From Prevotella sp. (GTDB lineage Bacteria > Bacteroidota > Bacteroidia > Bacteroidales > Bacteroidaceae): a stretch of 45,196 bases of DNA. Position 1 is the first letter of the stretch, and each line of letters starts with the position of its first letter. Made by a program: the position numbers and the translations under genes. Of this stretch, positions 765-42,812 are shown piece after piece. The notes under the pieces are model-generated. The model was not told where the DNA came from, made no database searches, and saw only the letters and a list, made by a program, of their open reading frames with translations. The stretch spans positions 1-45,196 of the forward strand of contig JAFZIL010000079.1 in the NCBI GenBank assembly GCA_017554385.1. The letters are read 5' to 3'.

Positions 765-1002
765 GCATGCCCTATGCAATGATACGAAAAAAAGTGGATG
801 TAAGTTTTTTCCTAATTATTTTGGTGTAGGATAGATAGCGGATAAATAGCGGATAAATTGCACGTAACAGATTGATAATCAGTATTAGGTGTAGGATAAG
901 CGGATAAACTACCATTTTTATTCTGGTAGCATTAAATATTTGGGGGATAGCAGAGGTCAAGAAGACAGCCGGAAAAGCTGTCAAACTACCCAAAACAGCA
1001 TT

Positions 1003-2412: not shown

Positions 2413-3246
2413 CTATTTGCCGTTGATGGTAACTATATAACTCTCATTTTCAGCAAACTCTGGTGACGTACCACGATAGTTGACAACTTTTCCATAGACT
2501 ACGACTTCGTCGCCAACGGCAATCTGCCTGTTGCCTTCTACCCATTTCTGTCCGAGGCTTTTGTAGTAGGTGGCATAGACGGTAAACACCTTATCACCTG
2601 TATATCCGGTATCTGAGATGTTGAATACCGATGTACCATATTCAACACTGAAAGGGTACTTGATGCTGCAGATCTTGCCCTTTACGCAATAAGGGTATAC
2701 GGAAACTTCGTCCTTGGGCATTGCCGTTACGATTTTGTATATCTCAGCGACAGTGATTGGGTTGTTGATGGAGTCGTTGTTTGAACTGTTTCCGTTGTCA
2801 GGGGTGTAGTCACCGTTGTGCCTATAGCATATATAGCTTTTCTGCTTGTTCCGATGAGTTATTGTTATTTCGACGGTGTTGTTGTCGATGACTTGTGTTA
2901 TCTGGATAATATCCACCACACTCTCATCAGCTGTATATTTGACCCTGATCGTATTGCCGGTCTGAGACCAAGTGTAATAATCGGGCTTGTCGCTTCCATA
3001 GCCTACTTCCTCAATAAGGTATCCCGTATGGTCGCTGTTGAATGTGAGTAAGTCGTAAACCTCACCACGGTTGGGGTCGTTCGACATATAATGGACGCGC
3101 CAGGTACCTACTACGTTGAAAGCAGCAACTTGGTTGTTGTCGCTGTTTACTATTTCGTCGTCACCATCGTTATCGCCGCAGGCAACCGTCAGGGTGAGGA
3201 TCGTTACCACGAGCATCAACATGCTCCAAATATTCAGTCTTTTCAT
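2413..3246 (-). CDS. Lipoprotein with lipocalin-like and OB-fold-like domains
   Basis: 277 residues. A signal peptide ends at LTVAC, giving a lipidated Cys23, then an acidic GDNDGDDE segment typical of Bacteroidales surface-exported lipoproteins. Residues ~45-145 resemble a lipocalin-like beta-barrel (VVGTWRVHY, LTFNSDHTGYL, TWSQTGNTIRVKY). An Asn/Ser-rich linker (~148-162) leads to a C-terminal ~110-residue domain (VAEIYKIV...GKICSI...VGDEVVVYGKVVNY), a pattern seen in Bacteroidales OB-fold lipoproteins. The role is unknown, possibly ligand binding at the cell surface. It is the second gene of a two-gene minus-strand operon, 9 bp after its partner. Confidence 0.8.
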   Translation of the reverse strand: MKRLNIWSMLMLVVTILTLTVACGDNDGDDEIVNSDNNQVAAFNVVGTWRVHYMSNDPNRGEVYDLLTFNSDHTGYLIEEVGYGSDKPDYYTWSQTGNTIRVKYTADESVVDIIQITQVIDNNTVEITITHRNKQKSYICYRHNGDYTPDNGNSSNNDSINNPITVAEIYKIVTAMPKDEVSVYPYCVKGKICSIKYPFSVEYGTSVFNISDTGYTGDKVFTVYATYYKSLGQKWVEGNRQIAVGDEVVVYGKVVNYRGTSPEFAENESYIVTINGK

Positions 3247-4199: not shown

Positions 4200-4670
4200 A
4201 TGATTAACAAGGAGAATTTAAAAACATTGGTTGAGGAGTGGTTGCAGAATGGCGACTACTTCTTGGTGGACATTCAGATGGACGGCGGCGACGACCGTAT
4301 AGCCATCGAGATTGACAATGCCGACGGTGTGTGGATTGAGGACTGCGCCGAGCTGAGCCGCTTCCTTCAGGAGCGTCTGGGCGAGGAGCTGGGCGAGTAC
4401 GAACTCGAAGTGGGTTCGGCCGGCCTGGGACAGCCTTTCAAGGTGGCTCAGCAGTATGAGAACCACGTGGGCGATGATGTGGAAGTTATTGGAAAAGACG
4501 GCAAGAAAACCACGGGCGTGCTGAAAAGCGTCGATGCCCCACGGTTTGTTGTCACTACGAAAGAGCGTCAGGTGCCCGAGGGTAAGAAGCGCCCCGTGCA
4601 GGTCGACGTTGACCGCGAGTTCTCGATGGACGAAGTAAAGAGCACCCGCTATCTGCTGGCGTTTAAGTAA
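4200..4670 (+). CDS. rimP: Ribosome maturation factor RimP
   Basis: 156 residues, the usual size, assisting 30S subunit assembly in the cytoplasm. The N-terminal alpha/beta domain holds DIQMDGGDDRIAIEIDNADGVWIEDCAELSRFL, close to the family pattern of a V-x-I-D strand followed by a D-C-x-x-x-S helix (quoted loosely, residues ~24-58). ELEVGSAGLGQPFK matches the conserved E-V-S-S-P-G-L-x-x-P segment with substitutions, and the C-terminal SH3-like part carries IGKDGKKTTGVL. The position ahead of nusA and infB is the classical gene order and the strongest support. Cotranscription from the 4102 promoter is inferred. Confidence 0.92.
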   Translation: MINKENLKTLVEEWLQNGDYFLVDIQMDGGDDRIAIEIDNADGVWIEDCAELSRFLQERLGEELGEYELEVGSAGLGQPFKVAQQYENHVGDDVEVIGKDGKKTTGVLKSVDAPRFVVTTKERQVPEGKKRPVQVDVDREFSMDEVKSTRYLLAFK

Positions 4671-4787
4671 GTGAAAAGTGAATAGTGAATAGTGAAAAGT
4701 GAATAGTGAAAAGTGAATAGTGAAAAGTGAATAGTGAAAAGTGAAAAGTGAATAGTGAATAGCGAAAAGTGAAAAATTTGCTTCCGC
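4671..4787. repeat. AGTGAAW heptamer array with tail, rimP-nusA gap
   Basis: Directly after the rimP stop, about fifteen 7-bp units alternate AGTGAAA and AGTGAAT (4671-4774), with one AGCGAAA. They end in AATTTGCTTCCGC (4775-4787), the tail shared with three other loci. The array fills most of the rimP-nusA gap, 66 bp before the nusA ATG, so it is transcribed. Confidence 0.85.
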
Positions 4788-14342: not shown

Positions 14343-15614
14343 ATGTCTAAAACAATAAAGCAAATAATAGTGAAGATGATTAACAGTTTTCTTGTCGGAT
14401 TAGGAATTCTCCTAACCATTCCTGCCTGTACGACAGAGGCAGCAGAACAGTCGGTAGATGGACAGTCAGCAAACGAAGTGCAACAATCCGCTCAGGCGAT
14501 TACTGCCAAACAGTGGAACCAGGACGTTGTAGGCTGGAACCTTGGTAACCAGTTTGAGTGCTCGGCTCCCGGCCAGGACGGTGAGTCAATGCAGATTGGC
14601 ATGCCAGACAACAGCATTAAGGCCGAGACAGCCTGGGGTAACCCGACGGTGACGAAGAAGACTATCAAGGCCGTGAAGGATGCTGGCTTCAACGCCGTCC
14701 GCATCCCAGTGCGCTGGCAGTGCCACATCACCAATCCTTTGGCCATGAGCATCGACAAGGCTTGGCTGGCGCGTATCAAGGAAGTGGTGGACTGGTGCTT
14801 GTCGTATGACCTGAAGGTGATTATCAATACCCACCACGACAAGTGGTTGGAGGGTCGTCCCACCTATACATATAAAGACGAGAACAACCAGAAGCTGGCT
14901 TTGCTGTGGATGAACATTGCCAGTGAGTTTGCCAGCTACGATTACCGCGTGGCCTTTGCCGGTACCAACGAGGTGCATATCCGGGACAATTGGGGCAAGC
15001 CTGCAGCAGAGAACTTAGCAGTACAGAACTCGTACAACCAGACCTTTATCGATGTGGTGCGTGCCACAGGCGGAAACAACGAGAAGCGTCACCTCATCGT
15101 GCAGACCTACGTTTGTAACCCCGACTTCGGACTCTACGACGGTGATTTTATCATTCCCACCGATACTGAGGGCAACGACAACAACTACATGAGCGTGGAG
15201 TTCCACTATTATACGCCGTGGGACTATGCTGGAAACTGCAAGTATTATTTCTGGGGCGACCAGTACAAACAGTATGGCGAGGTGCCGCAGGAGAACGAGA
15301 AGACAATGACCGACTTCTTTGACAAGGTGGTGAACACCTGGAGTGACAAGGGTCTGGGCGTTGTTATCGGCGAATGGGGTGTCACCGACCATACGAAGGG
15401 TAGTCAGGCCGACCTGCAACACGAGAACGCCACCTACTATAGCCGTTTCCTTGTTAGCGAGGCCCGTAAGCGTGGATTCTCAACCTTCGTCTGGGACAAC
15501 AACGCGTTTGGCAACGGACAGGAGAAGTTCGGCATCTTCGACCGCAAAGCTGGCATGAAGGTGAAGAACGACTGGGTACTGAAAGGTATCATGGAAGGGA
15601 AGAGTGATAAGTGA
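14343..15614 (+). CDS. GH5 endo-beta-glucanase lipoprotein
   Basis: 423 residues. A lipoprotein signal ends at TIPAC (Cys29). The GH5 TIM barrel (~55-415) opens with VVGWNLGNQFE and has WGNPTVTKKTIKAVKDAGFN, the R-I-P-V-R-W strand, and THHDKW. The general acid/base is Glu210 in GTNEVH and the nucleophile Glu344 in IGEWGV. HYYTPWDYAG is the substrate-binding histidine/tyrosine loop. The pattern suggests subfamily 4 (endoglucanase or xyloglucanase); GEWGV and HYYTPWD support it, while NEVH instead of NEPR weakens it. An alternative start at 14376 also gives a good signal peptide. The last residues (KSDK) are encoded by the start of the following heptamer array. Confidence 0.85.
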   Translation: MSKTIKQIIVKMINSFLVGLGILLTIPACTTEAAEQSVDGQSANEVQQSAQAITAKQWNQDVVGWNLGNQFECSAPGQDGESMQIGMPDNSIKAETAWGNPTVTKKTIKAVKDAGFNAVRIPVRWQCHITNPLAMSIDKAWLARIKEVVDWCLSYDLKVIINTHHDKWLEGRPTYTYKDENNQKLALLWMNIASEFASYDYRVAFAGTNEVHIRDNWGKPAAENLAVQNSYNQTFIDVVRATGGNNEKRHLIVQTYVCNPDFGLYDGDFIIPTDTEGNDNNYMSVEFHYYTPWDYAGNCKYYFWGDQYKQYGEVPQENEKTMTDFFDKVVNTWSDKGLGVVIGEWGVTDHTKGSQADLQHENATYYSRFLVSEARKRGFSTFVWDNNAFGNGQEKFGIFDRKAGMKVKNDWVLKGIMEGKSDK

Positions 15615-15686
15615 AGAGTGAAAAGTGAAGAGTGATAAGTGAAGAGTGAAAAGTGAAAAGTGAAGAGTGAAAAGGGATAAGTGAAA
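15599..15686. repeat. Heptamer array bridging GH5 stop and GH94 start
   Basis: Units AGTGAAR/AGTGATA with 7-bp period run through the last codons of GH5, its TGA (15612-15614), the whole gap, and up to the GH94 ATG at 15687 (context GTGAAAATG). The AATTTGCT tail seen elsewhere is absent. Both the stop of one gene and the start of the next lie in repeat DNA. Confidence 0.8.
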
Positions 15687-18200
15687 ATGAAGACTTTTGG
15701 ATATTTCGACGATAAGAACAGGGAGTACGTCATTACAGACCCGGCTACGCCGTTTCCCTGGATCAACTATTTGGGCAACGAAGACTTCTTCGGTCTGATT
15801 TCTAATACGGCTGGCGGTTACGACTTCTATAAGGACGCCAAGTTCCGCCGTATTACCCGCTATCGCTACAACAGCGTGCCGATGGATAATGTGGGTCGTT
15901 ATTTCTATATCGTGGATGGTGAGTCTTTCTGGTCTCCCGGCTGGAAACCTTGTAAAACGCCGCTTGACAGTTATGAGTGCCGCCACGGTATGAACTACAC
16001 CCGTATCACGGGCAGTAAGAATGGCGTAGAGGCCAGCGTGCTCTTCTTCGTACCATTGAAGACATGGGCTGAAGTGCAGAAGTTGACGCTGACGAATCAT
16101 ACAGACAGCGTTAAGAGCCTAAAGTTGTTCAGCTATACTGAGTGGTGCCTATGGAATGCTGCCACCGATGGCGAGAACTTCCAGCGTAACCTTTCGACGG
16201 GTGAAGTAGAAATTGAGAATAGTGTGCTTGACGGTTCTGCCGTCAAGACTACCGCCATCTACCATAAGACTGAGTACAAGGAGCGCCGCAACCACTATGC
16301 TTACTATGCACTGACCAACGCTGAGGCTCAGGGCTTCGACACCGACCGCGAGTCGTTCGTAGGTCTCTATAATGGGCTCGAAGCACCGCAGTGCGTCCTT
16401 GCCGGCAAGTCCGCCAACTCGGTAGCCCATGGTTGGAGCCCCATCGCCTCGCATTATATCGAGGTGGAGCTGCAACCCGGTGAGTCGAAGGATTTCATCT
16501 TTGTGTTGGGCTATGCCGAGAATAAGCAGGAGCAGAAGTTTGCTCCCGACGGTTTACCCGTCGAGTCAAGCCTCATCACCTCTCTCGGCGACCTTGACCG
16601 TACTATTATTAATAAGGAGAAGGCGCATGCAGTGATGGAACGTTTTTCAACTGTTGAAGCTGTCGATGCTGCCTTCGATGAACTGCACCTGATGTGGGAC
16701 GAACTGCTGTCGAAGTTTACAGTTACGAGCACCGATGAGCGCATGAACCGCATGGTGAACATCTGGAACCAGTACCAGTGCATGATTACCTTCAACTTCT
16801 CGCGCTCGGCCTCGTTCTTCGAGAGTGGGGTAGGGCGTGGCATGGGTTTCCGCGACTCCAATCAGGATCTTGTTGGCTTTGTCCATCAGGTGCCGAGCCG
16901 CGCTCGTCAGCGCATCATCGACATTGCCTCGACACAGTTCCCCGATGGTGGCTGCTATCACCAGTATCAGCCGCTCACCAAGCGTGGCAACAACGACATT
17001 GGTGGTGGCTTCAACGACGACCCCTGCTGGCTCATCTTCGGCACCGTGGCTTATATTAAAGAGACGGGCGACTTCAGTATTCTTGACGAGATGGTGCCTT
17101 TCGACAACCAGGCTGGTACGGAGGTCAGCCTTTTCGAGCACCTGCGAATCTCGTTCAACCACGTCATTGAGAACCTCGGGCCGCACATGCTGCCTCTCAT
17201 CGGACGAGCCGACTGGAACGACTGCCTGAACCTGAACTGCTTCTCCTGGGATCCCAACGAGAGCTTCCAGACCACCGAGAACCAGAGCGAAGGCTCGAAG
17301 GCTGAGTCGCTGATGATCGCTGGTTTGTTTGTCCTCACGGGCAAGCAGTACGTGGAGCTTTGCGACAAAATCGCAAAACACAGTGAGGCCGATCGCGCCC
17401 AGCGCTGCGTCGACGCTATGGTGGAGGCAGTGAAGAAGCACGGCTGGGACGGCGAGTGGTACCTACGCGCCTATGACTATTACGGGGGCAAGATTGGTTC
17501 CAACGAGAACGAAGAAGGCAAGATCTTCATCGAGAGCCAGGGCTTCTGCACGATGGCAGGCATCGGACTTGAGGAAGGAATGGTCGATCGTGCCCTTGAC
17601 TCCTGTAAGAAGTATCTTGACTCGGAGCATGGCATGGTGCTGAACCATCCCGCCTTCACCCGCTACTACGTTGAGATGGGCGAAATCAGCAGCTATCCTG
17701 CAGGCTACAAGGAGAATGCCGGCATTTTCTGTCACAATAACCCGTGGGTCATCATCGGCGAGACTGTGGCCCGTCGCGGTAACGATGCCTGGGAGCACTA
17801 TACGAAGATATGTCCCGCATGGATCAAAGACCAGCAGCTGCACAAGGTAGAGCCATACGTCTACTGTCAGATGGTGGCTGGCAAGGATGCCGCAAAGCCT
17901 GGTGAGGGCAAGAACTCGTGGCTCACGGGTACGGCTGCCTGGAACTGGCTGACCATCACGCAGTATATCCTCGGCATACGTCCCACCTACGACGGTTTGG
18001 AGATAGACCCCTGTATTCCCTCTACGCTGAAGGAGTTCACTGTGCACCGCGTTCTCCGCGATGCCACGTTCGACATCACCGTGAAGAATCCTGATGGCAA
18101 GGAGTGCGGTGTGCGGCAGATTACCATCGATGGCAAAACCATCGAGCACACGGTTATTCCGGCCACGCCCGGAAAACATGTAGTAGAAGTAATGATGTAA
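15687..18200 (+). CDS. GH94 cellobiose phosphorylase
   Basis: 837 residues, normal for the family. It phosphorolyses cellobiose in the cytoplasm to alpha-glucose-1-phosphate and glucose, saving one ATP. The N-terminus [13 protein letters not shown] and [20 protein letters not shown] are typical of cellobiose phosphorylases. The catalytic region [16 protein letters not shown] places the general acid at Asp512 (second Asp of DWND). There is no signal peptide, consistent with the cytoplasm. A GTG at 15681 is in frame but ATG 15687 gives the family N-terminus. Laminaribiose or cellodextrin specificity cannot be excluded. It is followed after 6 bp by a sugar symporter. Confidence 0.92.
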
Positions 18201-22600: not shown

Positions 22601-22780
22601 TTGGGCAAGTATGTGAAGGGTCTGAGCGTTTCGTTCGTAGCCCGTAACCCGTTCATTGTCTGGAAGAACATCCCCAACATCGATCCCGACTCCGGCTACA
22701 ACACCTCGGGTCTGGGCTTAGAGTACGGTTCGCTGCCCTCTCGTCGTAGCTATGGTTTCAACGTAAACGTGAAATTTTAA
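19604..22780 (+). CDS. SusC-family TonB-dependent outer-membrane transporter
   Basis: 1058 residues. Signal peptide to ~SASA (residue 27). A carboxypeptidase-regulatory-like domain (~40-105: VYGTVTDGTEPIIGASV, VSYVGYRDVTV) is followed by the TonB-box region LSEVVVTALGIKRE, the plug (VNSLSGKVAGL-like segment, LRGNTEISGNNQPLYVVDGV, ASALYGSRASHGVI) and a 22-strand-type beta-barrel ending in SYGFNVNVKF with terminal Phe. It imports oligosaccharides with its SusD lid, powered by TonB. The start is 23 bp after the symporter stop, so the order enzyme-symporter-SusC suggests one operon. Full length with no frameshift. Confidence 0.96.
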   Translation: MKNYQRLSCVAVVSGLMLTAVIPSASAAASVQETQQQSAKVYGTVTDGTEPIIGASVKVKGTSQGTVTDLDGKFRLDVAPGTELVVSYVGYRDVTVKAAAGMKIVLQEESTALSEVVVTALGIKRERKALGYGLAEVKGEELTKAKETNVINSLSGKVAGLIVQNTAGGASGSTRVLLRGNTEISGNNQPLYVVDGVPLDNTNFGSAGVEGGYDLGDGISAINPDDIENMTVLKGPAASALYGSRASHGVILITTKKAEKDQISVEYNGSLTIDTQLAKWDDLQQVYGMGYNGQYSPTATSGTNSSWGPKADDFEVEYFDHEKRPFLMYPNNTSDFFRTGLTAQNTAILSVNSGKTGVRFSVTDMRNKDILPETHMSRDNFNLRVNTSAGPVDLDFTVNYTREDVKNRPALGDSQSNVGKNLMTLASTYNQSWLKNYETSEGDYANWNGNDQYNKNPYWDLYKNENTTAKDVLRMTAKAIWNVNKHLKIQGTVGTDMNRMTFEDFIAKTTPGKLAGQLQNQHFNNNTLNAELLALYNNQWGDFDFNATLGGNIFRVDNKTDVFTGTDQQMKDVIAIMNYAEQNVQQNAYKKQINSLYGSASVGYQHTYYLEATLRGDKSSTLPVSNNVYVYPSFSGSVVFSEWIKNKKLINYGKLRASWAQVGSDTDPYQLALNYSTGKYSYGSGYMIGMINNSRQPNKDLKPTMTKSYELGLEMKFFNGRLGLDMTYYNQVSKDQIIPLHTAASSGYTYSLVNAGEIVNKGIEIALNGRVLQYKDFAWDAGVNFSKNINKVNALVDGMDDLMLEAASWCDVEVKAVVGEEYGAIVGKDFKRTENGQVIVNAITGMPEVEATPKTIGNASWDWTGGFYSTFTYKNFRLSAGFDVKVGADLYSMSMRSAFETGKATETLEGREEWYRSEENRKAANMTLDQWRLVGKCEGYVVPGVIDNGDGTYRPNDIAINPESYWKSVSRDVPSLFIYDNSYVKCREITFGYTFPETWLGKYVKGLSVSFVARNPFIVWKNIPNIDPDSGYNTSGLGLEYGSLPSRRSYGFNVNVKF

Positions 22781-22782
22781 GG

Positions 22783-22925
22783 GAAAAGTGAATATTGAAA
22801 AGTGAATAGTGAAAAGTGAAAAGTGAAAAGTGAACAGTGAAAAGTGAAAAGTGAATAGTGAAAAGTGAATAGTGAAAAGTGAATAGTGAAAAGTGAATAG
22901 TGAAAAGTGAATAATTTGCTACCGC
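22783..22925. repeat. AGTGAAW heptamer array with tail, susC-susD gap
   Basis: About eighteen 7-bp units (AGTGAAA and AGTGAAT, one ATTGAAA, one AGTGAAC) start 3 bp after the SusC stop and end in AATTTGCTACCGC (22913-22925). The whole 170-bp gap before SusD is this array plus 25 bp. SusC-SusD gaps are usually short, so the insertion may change the SusC:SusD expression ratio. Confidence 0.85.
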
Positions 22926-40910: not shown

Positions 40911-40932
40911 TAATCGTATAAAATAAGTGGGC

Positions 40933-42768
40933 ATGATTTTAACTAAACACGAAGAAACGAAGAAAGGAAGATTATTTCACGAGAACGAAAAACTTCGTAT
41001 CTTCGTATCTTCGTGTTCCATTAATTATTTGTACCAAGTTGTTTTTTTATCATCACTAAGCAAGAAATTCTTCTTAATACCTCTAACCTCCTTACTATTC
41101 CTCACCGCCTGCACGAACTGTGGCAACAGAACTGACGAACAGATGGCGCAGGTGGCGCAGCAGCGATATGACGAAGCGTGCCAGGCAAACGACATGAACC
41201 GCACCCTGGCCGTCATCGACAGCATGGAAAAGGCCCGCATCATCAGCACAGCAAAGGCTGACAATTGGCGGGCCTTTGCTTACGACCGGGGGTGGCAGAG
41301 GCGCATAGCCGAACACTACTACAGAAAGGCATACGAAGGCTATCGTGCCGACCTCAAACCTCAAAACTATTCAAGTTATGCCGATGCAGGCTTCCGCTGG
41401 GCATACCTGCGCTCGAGCAGAGGCGATACTGAGGGAGCGCTGGGCGTCATCACCGACCTGCTGGGCCAGGCAGAAGACAATCAAGACTTCCCGAAGAGCA
41501 CAGAGTCGGCCCTGACTATGCTCATGGCCCACTGCTACCTGCAGCTCCACCAGTGGGATGCCTGCCGGCGCAGCTGTCAGAAGGCCTACGAGATACAGAA
41601 GGCCATCACCGACGACAAGGCCGACGACAGGTTCAACCTCACCATCACCTGCATGAACATCTCTTCCTTCTACTTCGATATGGGCGACGTAGAGGGCGCA
41701 CAACAATGGCTCGAACGCTGCGAACAGGCGTTTGACCACTATCAACAGGTGGGCGACTCCATGCTCATAGAGGAATACAAAGGCCATATCGCCCTGGAGC
41801 AAGCACGCTACCTGCAAGCAACGGGCCATGCCGACGAGGCCGCAGCCACCTACGCCGCCGTCCCCCACACCCGCATCTTCGAAGCCGGGGGCTACACCGA
41901 GGCAGCCGATTACCTGATGGCTGCCGGACGCTACGACGAGGCCGCCTACTGGTACGAACAGATCGACAGCACCTACATAGCCACTGACGGAGCACAGATG
42001 ACCTTCGACATCATTGCCTCTCGCCTCTCACCACGCTATACGGCCTACCGCAAGGCCGGGCGCAACGACGATGCGCTGGTCATTGCCGACAATATCAGTG
42101 CCGCCATCGACTCTGCCCTCGCCTGGCAGAAACAGAACGATGCCGCCGAGCTGGCCGTCGTCTACCAGACACATGAGCGCGATCTGCAACTGACGAACTT
42201 ACGGTTTAAGGTCTCCCTACACCGTGTCATGGCTGTCGCCCTCGTGATCATTCTCCTGCTTATTGGCTATCTGCTCTGGCGCTCAAGGAAATACAACAGA
42301 GTGCTGGCCAAGAAGAACCAACATCTCTACGAGCAGATGAAGCTGCGTGAACAGGCCATCGAAGAGGAGCGCAAGGCATTGCAGGCACAGCCCGAAGACA
42401 GTCTTACCTCAGCGCAGCAGCTCTTCCGGCAACTATGTACGCTCATGGACGAGCGTCAGCCCTATATCGACGAGACGTTGAACCGCGACACGCTGGCACA
42501 GATGTTAGGCACCAACGCCAAGTACGTCGTACAGGCCATCCGCGAGTGCTCGCATGGCGAGACCGTCACCGATTTCATCACCCGATACCGTCTGGAGAAC
42601 GTAGCCCGTCTGCTGAAGACCACCGACGACCCCATATCGCTCATCGGCGAGCTCTCAGGCATCCCCAGCCGCGCCACCCTCGCCCGCCTCTTCCGTAATA
42701 CCTACGGCATGACCTGCAGTGAATTTCGCCAAGCAGCGAGAGCAGAGGCCGTTACAGAATATTTGTAA
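40933..42768 (+). CDS. TPR membrane regulator with AraC-type DNA-binding domain
   Basis: 611 residues from ATG 40933, the only upstream ATG, though the start is doubtful: the first ~30 codons are an inverted 9-bp-type repeat (40946-41017). A lipoprotein-like signal FFLIPLTSLLFLTAC follows. TTG 41029 would give a normal signal length. TPR-like helical repeats (~80-410: QRRIAEHYYRKAYEGYRADL, ISSFYFDMGDVEGAQQWLERC, given loosely) are followed by a TM (VMAVALVIILLLIGYLLW), a coiled coil, and an AraC HTH (~505-605: DTLAQMLGTNAKYVVQAI, PSRATLARLFRNTYGMTCSEF). It would be a one-protein membrane-to-DNA signalling regulator; ligand unknown. Confidence 0.82.
   Translation: MILTKHEETKKGRLFHENEKLRIFVSSCSINYLYQVVFLSSLSKKFFLIPLTSLLFLTACTNCGNRTDEQMAQVAQQRYDEACQANDMNRTLAVIDSMEKARIISTAKADNWRAFAYDRGWQRRIAEHYYRKAYEGYRADLKPQNYSSYADAGFRWAYLRSSRGDTEGALGVITDLLGQAEDNQDFPKSTESALTMLMAHCYLQLHQWDACRRSCQKAYEIQKAITDDKADDRFNLTITCMNISSFYFDMGDVEGAQQWLERCEQAFDHYQQVGDSMLIEEYKGHIALEQARYLQATGHADEAAATYAAVPHTRIFEAGGYTEAADYLMAAGRYDEAAYWYEQIDSTYIATDGAQMTFDIIASRLSPRYTAYRKAGRNDDALVIADNISAAIDSALAWQKQNDAAELAVVYQTHERDLQLTNLRFKVSLHRVMAVALVIILLLIGYLLWRSRKYNRVLAKKNQHLYEQMKLREQAIEEERKALQAQPEDSLTSAQQLFRQLCTLMDERQPYIDETLNRDTLAQMLGTNAKYVVQAIRECSHGETVTDFITRYRLENVARLLKTTDDPISLIGELSGIPSRATLARLFRNTYGMTCSEFRQAARAEAVTEYL
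40946..41017. repeat. 25-bp imperfect inverted repeat at the 5' end of the TPR-AraC gene
   Basis: 40946-40970 (AACACGAAGAAACGAAG...) pairs with 40993-41017 (...TTCGTATCTTCGTGTT) with about four mismatches. Both arms are built of 9-bp ACGAAGATA-like units. It could fold in the leader RNA, and it makes translation from the upstream ATG less likely. Confidence 0.65.
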
Positions 42769-42812
42769 TGGCATTACAGACTATTTGTAACGGCGTTACA
42801 AACCGTATGTAA
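42752..42812. repeat. 22-bp-period array, locus 3 (three units)
   Basis: TTACAGAATATTTGTAA (42752-42768), TTACAGACTATTTGTAA (42774-42790) and TTACAAACCGTATGTAA (42796-42812) are 17-bp dyads spaced by TGGCA and CGGCG. The arms TTACA/TGTAA are invariant and only the 7-bp centre varies. Unit 1 overlaps the last codons and stop of the TPR-AraC gene. The same 17+5 geometry occurs at 699-764 and 2294-2376. Confidence 0.85.

Follow-up and report, generated by a model that had tools for sequence, protein, structure and literature searches.

Our analysis favors a model whereby the phased palindrome arrays of a Prevotella sp. genome (assembly GCA_017554385.1) are cooperative binding sites belonging to small, mobile-looking elements, with dimers of the DUF6078 protein binding the sites and with the arrays spreading in a RAYT/REP-like manner; judged from sequence comparison, we consider this model probable. 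The arrays are built of 17-bp dyads on a 22-bp pitch and recur across the genome and in other species. They stand beside DUF6078 genes with different arm sequences, the resulting cassettes are bounded by inverted repeats, and some of the scattered copies contain cassette DNA. Binding of the array by DUF6078, movement of the elements and any benefit are what we infer.

Results

The window, i.e., the whole stretch of 45,196 bp that was analyzed, is contig C78 of a 3.06-Mb draft genome (98 contigs, 81.3% complete; here called the own genome). It holds three arrays, none assigned to a strand, in which 17-bp dyads alternate with 5-bp spacers on a 22-bp pitch; written as half-sites, each dyad is 7 + 3 + 7 bp. 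Array A3 (42752-42812) comprises three dyads TTACA-N7-TGTAA, mostly TTACARA-N3-TYTGTAA, the first of which overlaps a stop codon, that of the gene at 40927-42768, whose product has an AraC-type HTH_18 domain. Array A2 (2294-2376) comprises four dyads CWRACAG-N3-CTGTYWG in the orientations F,R,R,F, with units reading C[AT][AG]ACAG-(CCC/GGG)-CTGT[TC][AT]G and the outer G missing from the last unit, and is flanked by convergent ORFs at 1170-2117 (PALP family) and 2413-3246 (no Pfam match). Array A1 (699-759) has three dyads GTCCCA-N5-TGGGAC with one mismatch in the first, and arms like these recur in an array beside DUF6078 on contig C32 as well as in G050 (L307) and G020 (L348). Autocorrelation in the three regions peaks at 22 and then at 44. 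The geometry described in an earlier, sequence-only reading of this DNA (three arrays of 17-bp dyads with 5-bp spacers, 22 bp from start to start) is thereby confirmed at 42752-42812, 2294-2376 and 699-759. Center triplets flip while the pitch is unchanged. Two other repeats were seen in the window: arrays of a 7-bp unit, AAGTGAA, lie close to gene ends at 4669-4775, 15595-15691 and 22779-22911, and an inverted repeat (AGTCCACTTTAAAAAGTCC...) at 2160-2262 has pieces of 29-61 bp at 95-100% in L034, L039, L048, and L049.

Neighboring dyads 22 bp apart were found throughout the own genome: 19 pairs of the TTACA family (0 mismatches), 14 of the TCCCA family and 51 of the ACAG family, the commonest there (both with ≤2 mismatches); the patterns of all three families read backwards, as a control, gave 0 occurrences in the same genome. 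The sequence-only reading had held that the shared geometry would be coincidental if a 22-bp period were no commoner than others. In a scan for alternating inverted 5-mers at periods of 12-40 in a 445-kb own sample (the window and 20 stretches of 20 kb each), 22 alone stands out, with 53 matches in 17 bins, as against 0-6 matches in 0-2 bins at every other period. Dyad centers are also enriched at 11, 33, 44, and 55 bp (relative to one shuffle), because the spacers too are symmetry centers. That independent tandem repeats merely happen to share 22 bp nevertheless has some points in its favor, in that some runs are plainly duplicated units (L031:15596-15727) and the excess at 22 in congener samples is small. 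Against such a coincidence speak the period spectrum of the own sample, the same pitch across species, the mixing of families in one register and the observation that around DUF6078 genes other periods are not equally frequent, and we regard it as extremely unlikely. Two mixed arrays were observed, with CAATAG..TTTG units standing in the 22-bp register of ACAG units at L031:15540-15750 (own genome) and of TCTAG units at L095:2540-2715 (G133); L095:8000-8066 matches the Rfam family BTncRNA_FopS, a Bacteroidetes sRNA family.

Sequences of the arrays are species-bound and the 22-bp pitch is not. Four sets of congener samples (1.17 Mb in all, periods up to 60) had 3+1, 1+3, 0+1, and 0+1 bins with matches at 21 and 22, a smaller excess than in the own genome, with mostly 0-3 bins per set at other periods ≤60 and 6 at 41 in G016. 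TCTAG-GGG-CTAGA arrays and one array switching family in register occur in G133, and further array sequences at pitch 22 or 21 in G016, G061, and G142. Other families of the order, sampled over 245 kb, gave no matches at 21 or 22 (and two at 44), and 50 kb of E. coli K-12 gave one match only, at period 56. Of 150 genomes searched in the genus, two had the ACAG pattern (≤1 mismatch), the own genome with 31 pairs and G021 with one. TTACA-type arrays are present in many Prevotella species, and other arms share the same pitch. When the TTACA pair pattern was scanned over 84,980 species genomes, for which about 0.2 chance matches are expected at equal base frequencies, at least 109 stretches matched; the 109 listed come from Prevotella (97), Prevotellaceae (2), Bacteroides/Bacteroidaceae (9), and a Campylobacterales MAG (1). 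All 261 neighbor steps in the listed arrays equal 22 bp, the pattern itself having demanded at least one such step per array, and the arrays have 2 (12 arrays), 3 (53), 4 (35), 5 (7), or 6 (2) units. With the spacer left free at 1-30 bp, TTACA pairs were found in 30 of 398 genomes of the genus, the own genome included, and spacings among the matches listed were 22 or 44, with one of 40. One viral contig, L261 (IMG/VR), carries a TTACA array. Palindrome arrays of G016 on a 41-bp pitch (L115:2761-3440, L117:1-620) switch palindrome blockwise (TCCGA..TCGGA, TTCGGCC..GGCCGAA, TCCAA..TTGGA) while an A-rich linker is kept; judged by eye, a stop codon precedes such an array, whose A-rich side is that of the coding strand.

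The palindromic units could also serve as RNA or single-strand hairpins, such as terminators or mRNA stabilizers, all the more as some neighboring units are inverted and form long perfect hairpins (e.g., C45:13035). Covariation of the arms bears on this point, because it would be required of a paired stem but not of a symmetric protein. TTACA units covary slightly at position 7 (p 0.034, 370 units from other genomes), but the ACAG arms do not covary (p 0.30, 0.85, and 0.90 in 79 own units) and TTACA position 6 prefers unlike letters in 32 own units (p 0.66 in the 370 units elsewhere). Apart from this one weak sign, the half-sites thus have degenerate positions that vary without arm covariation, which favors a dimer site over a stem and agrees with the dimeric proteins suggested at the outset. 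Moreover, the orientation of neighbors within an array is free (35 ACAG pairs alike, 19 opposite), and a hairpin has no need of a fixed pitch, yet 54 of 56 steps in the 23 ACAG arrays of the fetched loci are 22 bp and the other 2 are 21 bp. No Rfam match was found at arrays in the five sources searched. Hairpins are therefore a highly unlikely explanation.

When the 847 ORFs of 122 array loci were clustered (four of the original 126 loci had no exact pair), DUF6078 emerged as the gene that accompanies the arrays. The largest cluster, which corresponds to this Pfam family, contains 10 ORFs in 10 loci, i.e., 8 distinct genes, as two pairs are one gene fetched twice, and these lie ≤64 bp from the array in 9 of 10 cases and at 248 bp in one. 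A VapE-like family (5 loci) follows, and after it come five clusters, each from 3-5 loci, whose members are near the array less frequently. In the alignment, DUF6078 has four near-invariant cysteines. Genes for it are present in 35 of 60 genomes of the genus, the own genome among them with four genes, one interrupted by a stop. DUF6078 was the sole family matched in a Pfam scan of two own proteins, PHROGs and PADLOC gave no matches for three proteins, a PDB profile search gave a best E of 0.1, which is not significant, and the word DUF6078 has no occurrence in the open-licence papers searched.

The association was also examined from the side of the gene, in a locus test without ASCERTAINMENT for which 69 genes were found without using arrays. 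A strict 22-bp array lies ≤500 bp away in 19 of 33 DUF6078 loci, compared with 0 or 1 locus at each other period of 14-45 except 44, the double (15 loci), and 45 (2 loci). Among 78 genes, one counted twice, the best period within 17-30 is 22 in 59, and a score of ≥34/42 is reached by 45 at period 22 and by 1 at 23; 41 of these 45 high-scoring arrays are downstream of DUF6078, and 33 of the 78 loci have no array at this score within 400 bp. For the array-independent genes, 37 of 69 have a clear 22-bp array (≥34/42) within 400 bp, 33 of them downstream, while only 16 of 764 unrelated control ORFs from the congener samples pass the same score at 22, with 6 more best at 21. The arms beside DUF6078 vary widely (TTACC, ATTCCCA, GTCCCAC, GTTTC, TGGTAC, AGAAAAC, GTGCA, ATCATCA, and others), and protein similarity tracks array similarity (Mantel rho 0.355, 0 of 2000 permutations, 45 genes; rho 0.349 once protein pairs >90% identical are removed), a result that could be inflated by shared descent of neighboring DNA. 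Of 121 alignment columns compared in 43 proteins, those that follow array type most closely are 92, 131, and 93 in the C74 DUF6078 domain (z 4.1, 3.3, and 3.1), and their possible link to array specificity is a lead only.

At the level of genomes, TTACC arrays occur in 5 of 60; G043, G044, G060, and G070 each have a DUF6078 gene beside such an array, and G012 has TTACC arrays (8 pair matches) and no DUF6078 match. In G017, a TTACC-like array without an exact pair lies at a DUF6078 gene. TTCCC arrays occur in 12 of 60 genomes, of which 11 have DUF6078 (35 of 60 overall) and 6 have the array adjoining the gene; G067 has TTCCC arrays and no DUF6078 match. G016, in which a 200-kb sample contains a 22-bp array, has no DUF6078 match either. 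For the ACAG family, no DUF6078 partner or cassette was found in the 81%-complete own draft. The DUF6078 gene at C62:192521 was considered as its partner and rejected, as there is no array at that place and only two ACAG-like units 2.3 kb away.

One frequent gene order is inverted repeat, DUF6078, array, primase-helicase (PrimPol/VapE-like), inverted repeat, with an element length of 2.8-3.2 kb in the seven that were measured. In the own genome, a TTACA array follows DUF6078 on C74 and a TCCCA array follows it on C32, and each is followed in turn by a gene with BT4734-like_N, VapE-like, and DUF3874 (DUF5906) domains; the N-terminus of the C74 VapE-like protein matches PrimPol and its C-terminal part matches phage DNA helicase/primase families. 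Across the 78 DUF6078 loci, DUF6078, array and VapE lie on one strand in 18, VapE and DUF6078 occur without an array in 10, an array occurs without VapE in the fetched flank (often ~1.5 kb) in 25, neither is present in 21, and 4 are arranged otherwise. Inverted repeats upstream of DUF6078 and just past VapE (≥30 bits) were detected in 16 of 19 cassettes, with 21-158 bp aligned (at best 158 bp at 87%); two of the three cassettes without a match have almost no upstream sequence. In the null set, 10 of 342 cross-cassette pairs reached 30 bits, with a maximum of 48 bits, so that five of the cassettes' own pairs (79-196 bits) lie above all null pairs and eleven within the upper null range. The inverted repeats differ between most cassettes. 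At nine elements inspected, with ends set by alignment only, no convincing target-site duplication was seen, and Pfam recognized no transposase in either gene of two own cassettes. Within the inverted repeats of L401 and L402, and at 629-662 of the window, there are internal short repeats ~11 bp apart (GTGTAGGTA, GTGACATTA, GTGATGTTT), which are perhaps sites for a second protein.

The neighboring primase-helicase raises the possibility that this protein reads the array as a replication origin of the iteron type, with DUF6078 as an accessory. Iteron origins of the RK2 type, known from plasmids and phage satellites, have ~17-bp sites on a 22-bp pitch, those of the RK2 plasmid being 17 bp long and about 22 bp apart, and the arrays resemble them in both respects; in 18 of 78 loci they also stand between DUF6078 and the PrimPol/VapE-like gene, putatively of the replication type. 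The array ends 13-88 bp before the predicted primase-helicase start in the own C74 and C32 cassettes and in L168, L186, L200, L278, and L267 (incomplete gene), and the PrimPol and phage helicase/primase matches fit such a role. Unlike iterons, however, the units are dyads that occur in both orientations and at scattered places of the chromosome. In addition, 25 of 45 arrays beside DUF6078 lack a VapE-like gene, within flanks that are often ~1.5 kb, and the 10 VapE-DUF6078 arrangements lack an array. We therefore consider an iteron origin rather unlikely.

Some of the scattered arrays appear to be copies or relics of cassettes because cassette DNA is carried in them; on the sequences compared, this would account for the scattered arrays in part. 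One scattered array of G070 aligns with the cassette at 94% over a stretch of 127 bp that takes in the final codons and stop of DUF6078; in G051, the cassette's leader, which is its inverted repeat, is carried by 3 of 7 fetched scattered arrays; and ten scattered arrays of G060 share little with the cassette beyond the array itself. Own GTCCCA arrays at C52 and C20 are inside small elements, between inverted repeats of the C32-cassette family, and those at C80 and C95 have a C32-family inverted repeat on one side. The window array at 699 likewise has a repeat on one side (550-679, + strand), which belongs to the family seen as inverted repeats in the C32 cassette and in the small C52 and C20 elements; at 821-907 (+ strand) there is a second repeat family, the one whose inverted copies enclose the VapE-like gene of C62 (L359 507-599 and 2914-3007). 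Three of the nine own TTACA arrays share a flanking repeat with each other, and the one at C72 has a repeat of the 550-679 type ~50 bp away. Five of the nine show neither repeat, and solo arrays are therefore common.

By their placement in the own genome, 21 arrays are co-directional with their neighbors, 8 convergent, 3 divergent, 2 inside an ORF, and 6 unclassified. For TTACA arrays of the named genomes, with ORFs called by length only and 80 classifiable arrays compared with 179 other gaps, 28 are in convergent, 43 in co-directional, and 9 in divergent gaps and 1 is inside an ORF, the other gaps being 24, 108, and 47, respectively. Convergent gaps are thus enriched (28 of 80 vs. 24 of 179, p 1.7e-4) and divergent gaps depleted (9 of 80 vs. 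47 of 179, p 0.008), and co-directional arrays are more often nearer a 3' end (29 vs. 14, p 0.03). This pattern may reflect function or mere promoter avoidance. The neighbors of 33 own arrays look unrelated (gyrB, HU, hisC, rubrerythrin, CoA transferase, hybrid sensor-regulator), as named by eye from the sequence, with a Pfam basis for five proteins only. Chromosomal arrays might be retained because, with DUF6078 or a different dimeric protein bound to them, they act as roadblocks to transcription or as insulators, as their preference for convergent gaps and 3' ends and their avoidance of divergent gaps would suggest. Their patchy presence (TTACA pairs in the 30 of 398 genomes above), the unrelated neighboring genes and the cassette DNA inside some scattered copies argue against this idea, as does the fact that promoter avoidance alone yields the same placement, and we consider it unlikely. 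A set of transcription-factor operators forming a regulon was rejected, given the few arrays in divergent gaps (3 of 32 own, 9 of 80 TTACA) and the unrelated neighbors.

Discussion

In our model, which goes beyond the sequence comparisons that suggest it, the element consists of an inverted repeat, DUF6078, the 22-bp dyad array, a PrimPol/VapE-like gene and a second inverted repeat, and each DUF6078 lineage would have its own arm sequence. A dyad of 17 bp would be read by one DUF6078 dimer as two half-sites of 7 bp, one on either side of a 3-bp center. Half-site centers alternate at 10 and 12 bp and would therefore all lie on about one helix face, and dimers 22 bp apart could in this way assemble three or four side by side. 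The array, sometimes with inverted repeats, would be copied or left elsewhere, giving rise to scattered arrays that are mostly intergenic and often near 3' ends; the primase-helicase presumably takes part in the copying, and the placement probably reflects tolerated insertion rather than gene control. Of the two ideas put forward in the sequence-only reading, a generating mechanism common to the arrays finds support in scattered arrays that hold pieces of DUF6078 cassettes. For the other, site-specific dimeric proteins of one family sitting two helical turns apart, DUF6078 is a candidate, found as it is beside many different 22-bp arrays, with the protein-array correlation as further support.

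It is tempting to speculate that these elements represent mobile elements of a new class, one without a transposase, in which a zinc-type DUF6078 dimer and a PrimPol-helicase would copy the element from the phased dyad array as an origin or loading platform, and in which diversification of DUF6078-array pairs would give each element a private address, allowing several to coexist per genome; we offer this as a possibility that is somewhat more likely to be wrong than right. For DUF6078, an unstudied Pfam family, a concrete role can be proposed, and in dozens of natural pairs of gene and site the spacing is identical and the sites differ, which makes them a natural data set on how a DNA-binding protein could change specificity yet keep cooperativity. 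Should the elements prove mobile, the RAYT-REP lifestyle would have been invented independently, with a primase-helicase replacing the transposase, and part of the intergenic repeats of Prevotella would be explained.

We found no description of such 22-bp dyad arrays in titles and abstracts of the open-licence literature searched on palindromes, REPs, iterons, and Bacteroidetes/Prevotella repeats. Multi-dimer operators and phage stoperators have helically phased dimer sites, and the array dyads are phased likewise; unlike these, the arrays are often near 3' ends of unrelated genes, with no regulon seen. CRISPR repeats are ~23-47 bp long and separated by unique spacers of similar length; judged by repeat geometry, a CRISPR array was rejected for the 17-bp dyads with 5-bp spacers and free orientation. 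With MITEs and inverted-repeat transposons, the cassettes share inverted repeats (21-158 bp aligned) and short gene-less derivatives, but no transposase was recognized, no target-site duplication was convincing, and the inverted repeats are mostly cassette-specific.

The closest analogy is to RAYT-REP systems, in which a gene lies beside its own palindromes, scattered copies occur in both orientations with species-specific sequences, gene and repeat presence are correlated, and copies capture gene 3' ends (PMC2817692). To this extent, the arrays are like RAYT-REP, REPIN, and BIME, with gene-specific palindromes beside DUF6078 and dispersed copies that have captured gene 3' ends. They are unlike them in having DUF6078 and PrimPol/VapE-like partners and no Y1/HUH transposase beside the arrays, and in the 22-bp pitch with mostly three or four dyads and no GTAG tag. 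By this analogy, the DUF6078 system would work like RAYT-REP but lacks the transposase that defines it. The own genome does have one Y1 transposase gene, and dispersed, orientation-free palindromes look similar to REP/BIME elements spread by a single RAYT-like transposase. This sole Y1_Tnp gene is, however, flanked by a different inverted pair (TGTAGGGGCAGGCCC...) and not by 22-bp arrays, which accompany DUF6078 instead; the RAYT as array spreader is contradicted by its own cognate pair, was rejected and has in our estimate almost no chance of being correct. The Y1 transposase gene (L045:2367-2912) sits between hisC-like and hisD-like genes within the inverted pair, and a copy of this pair adjoins a 22-bp array (L031:15750-15880).
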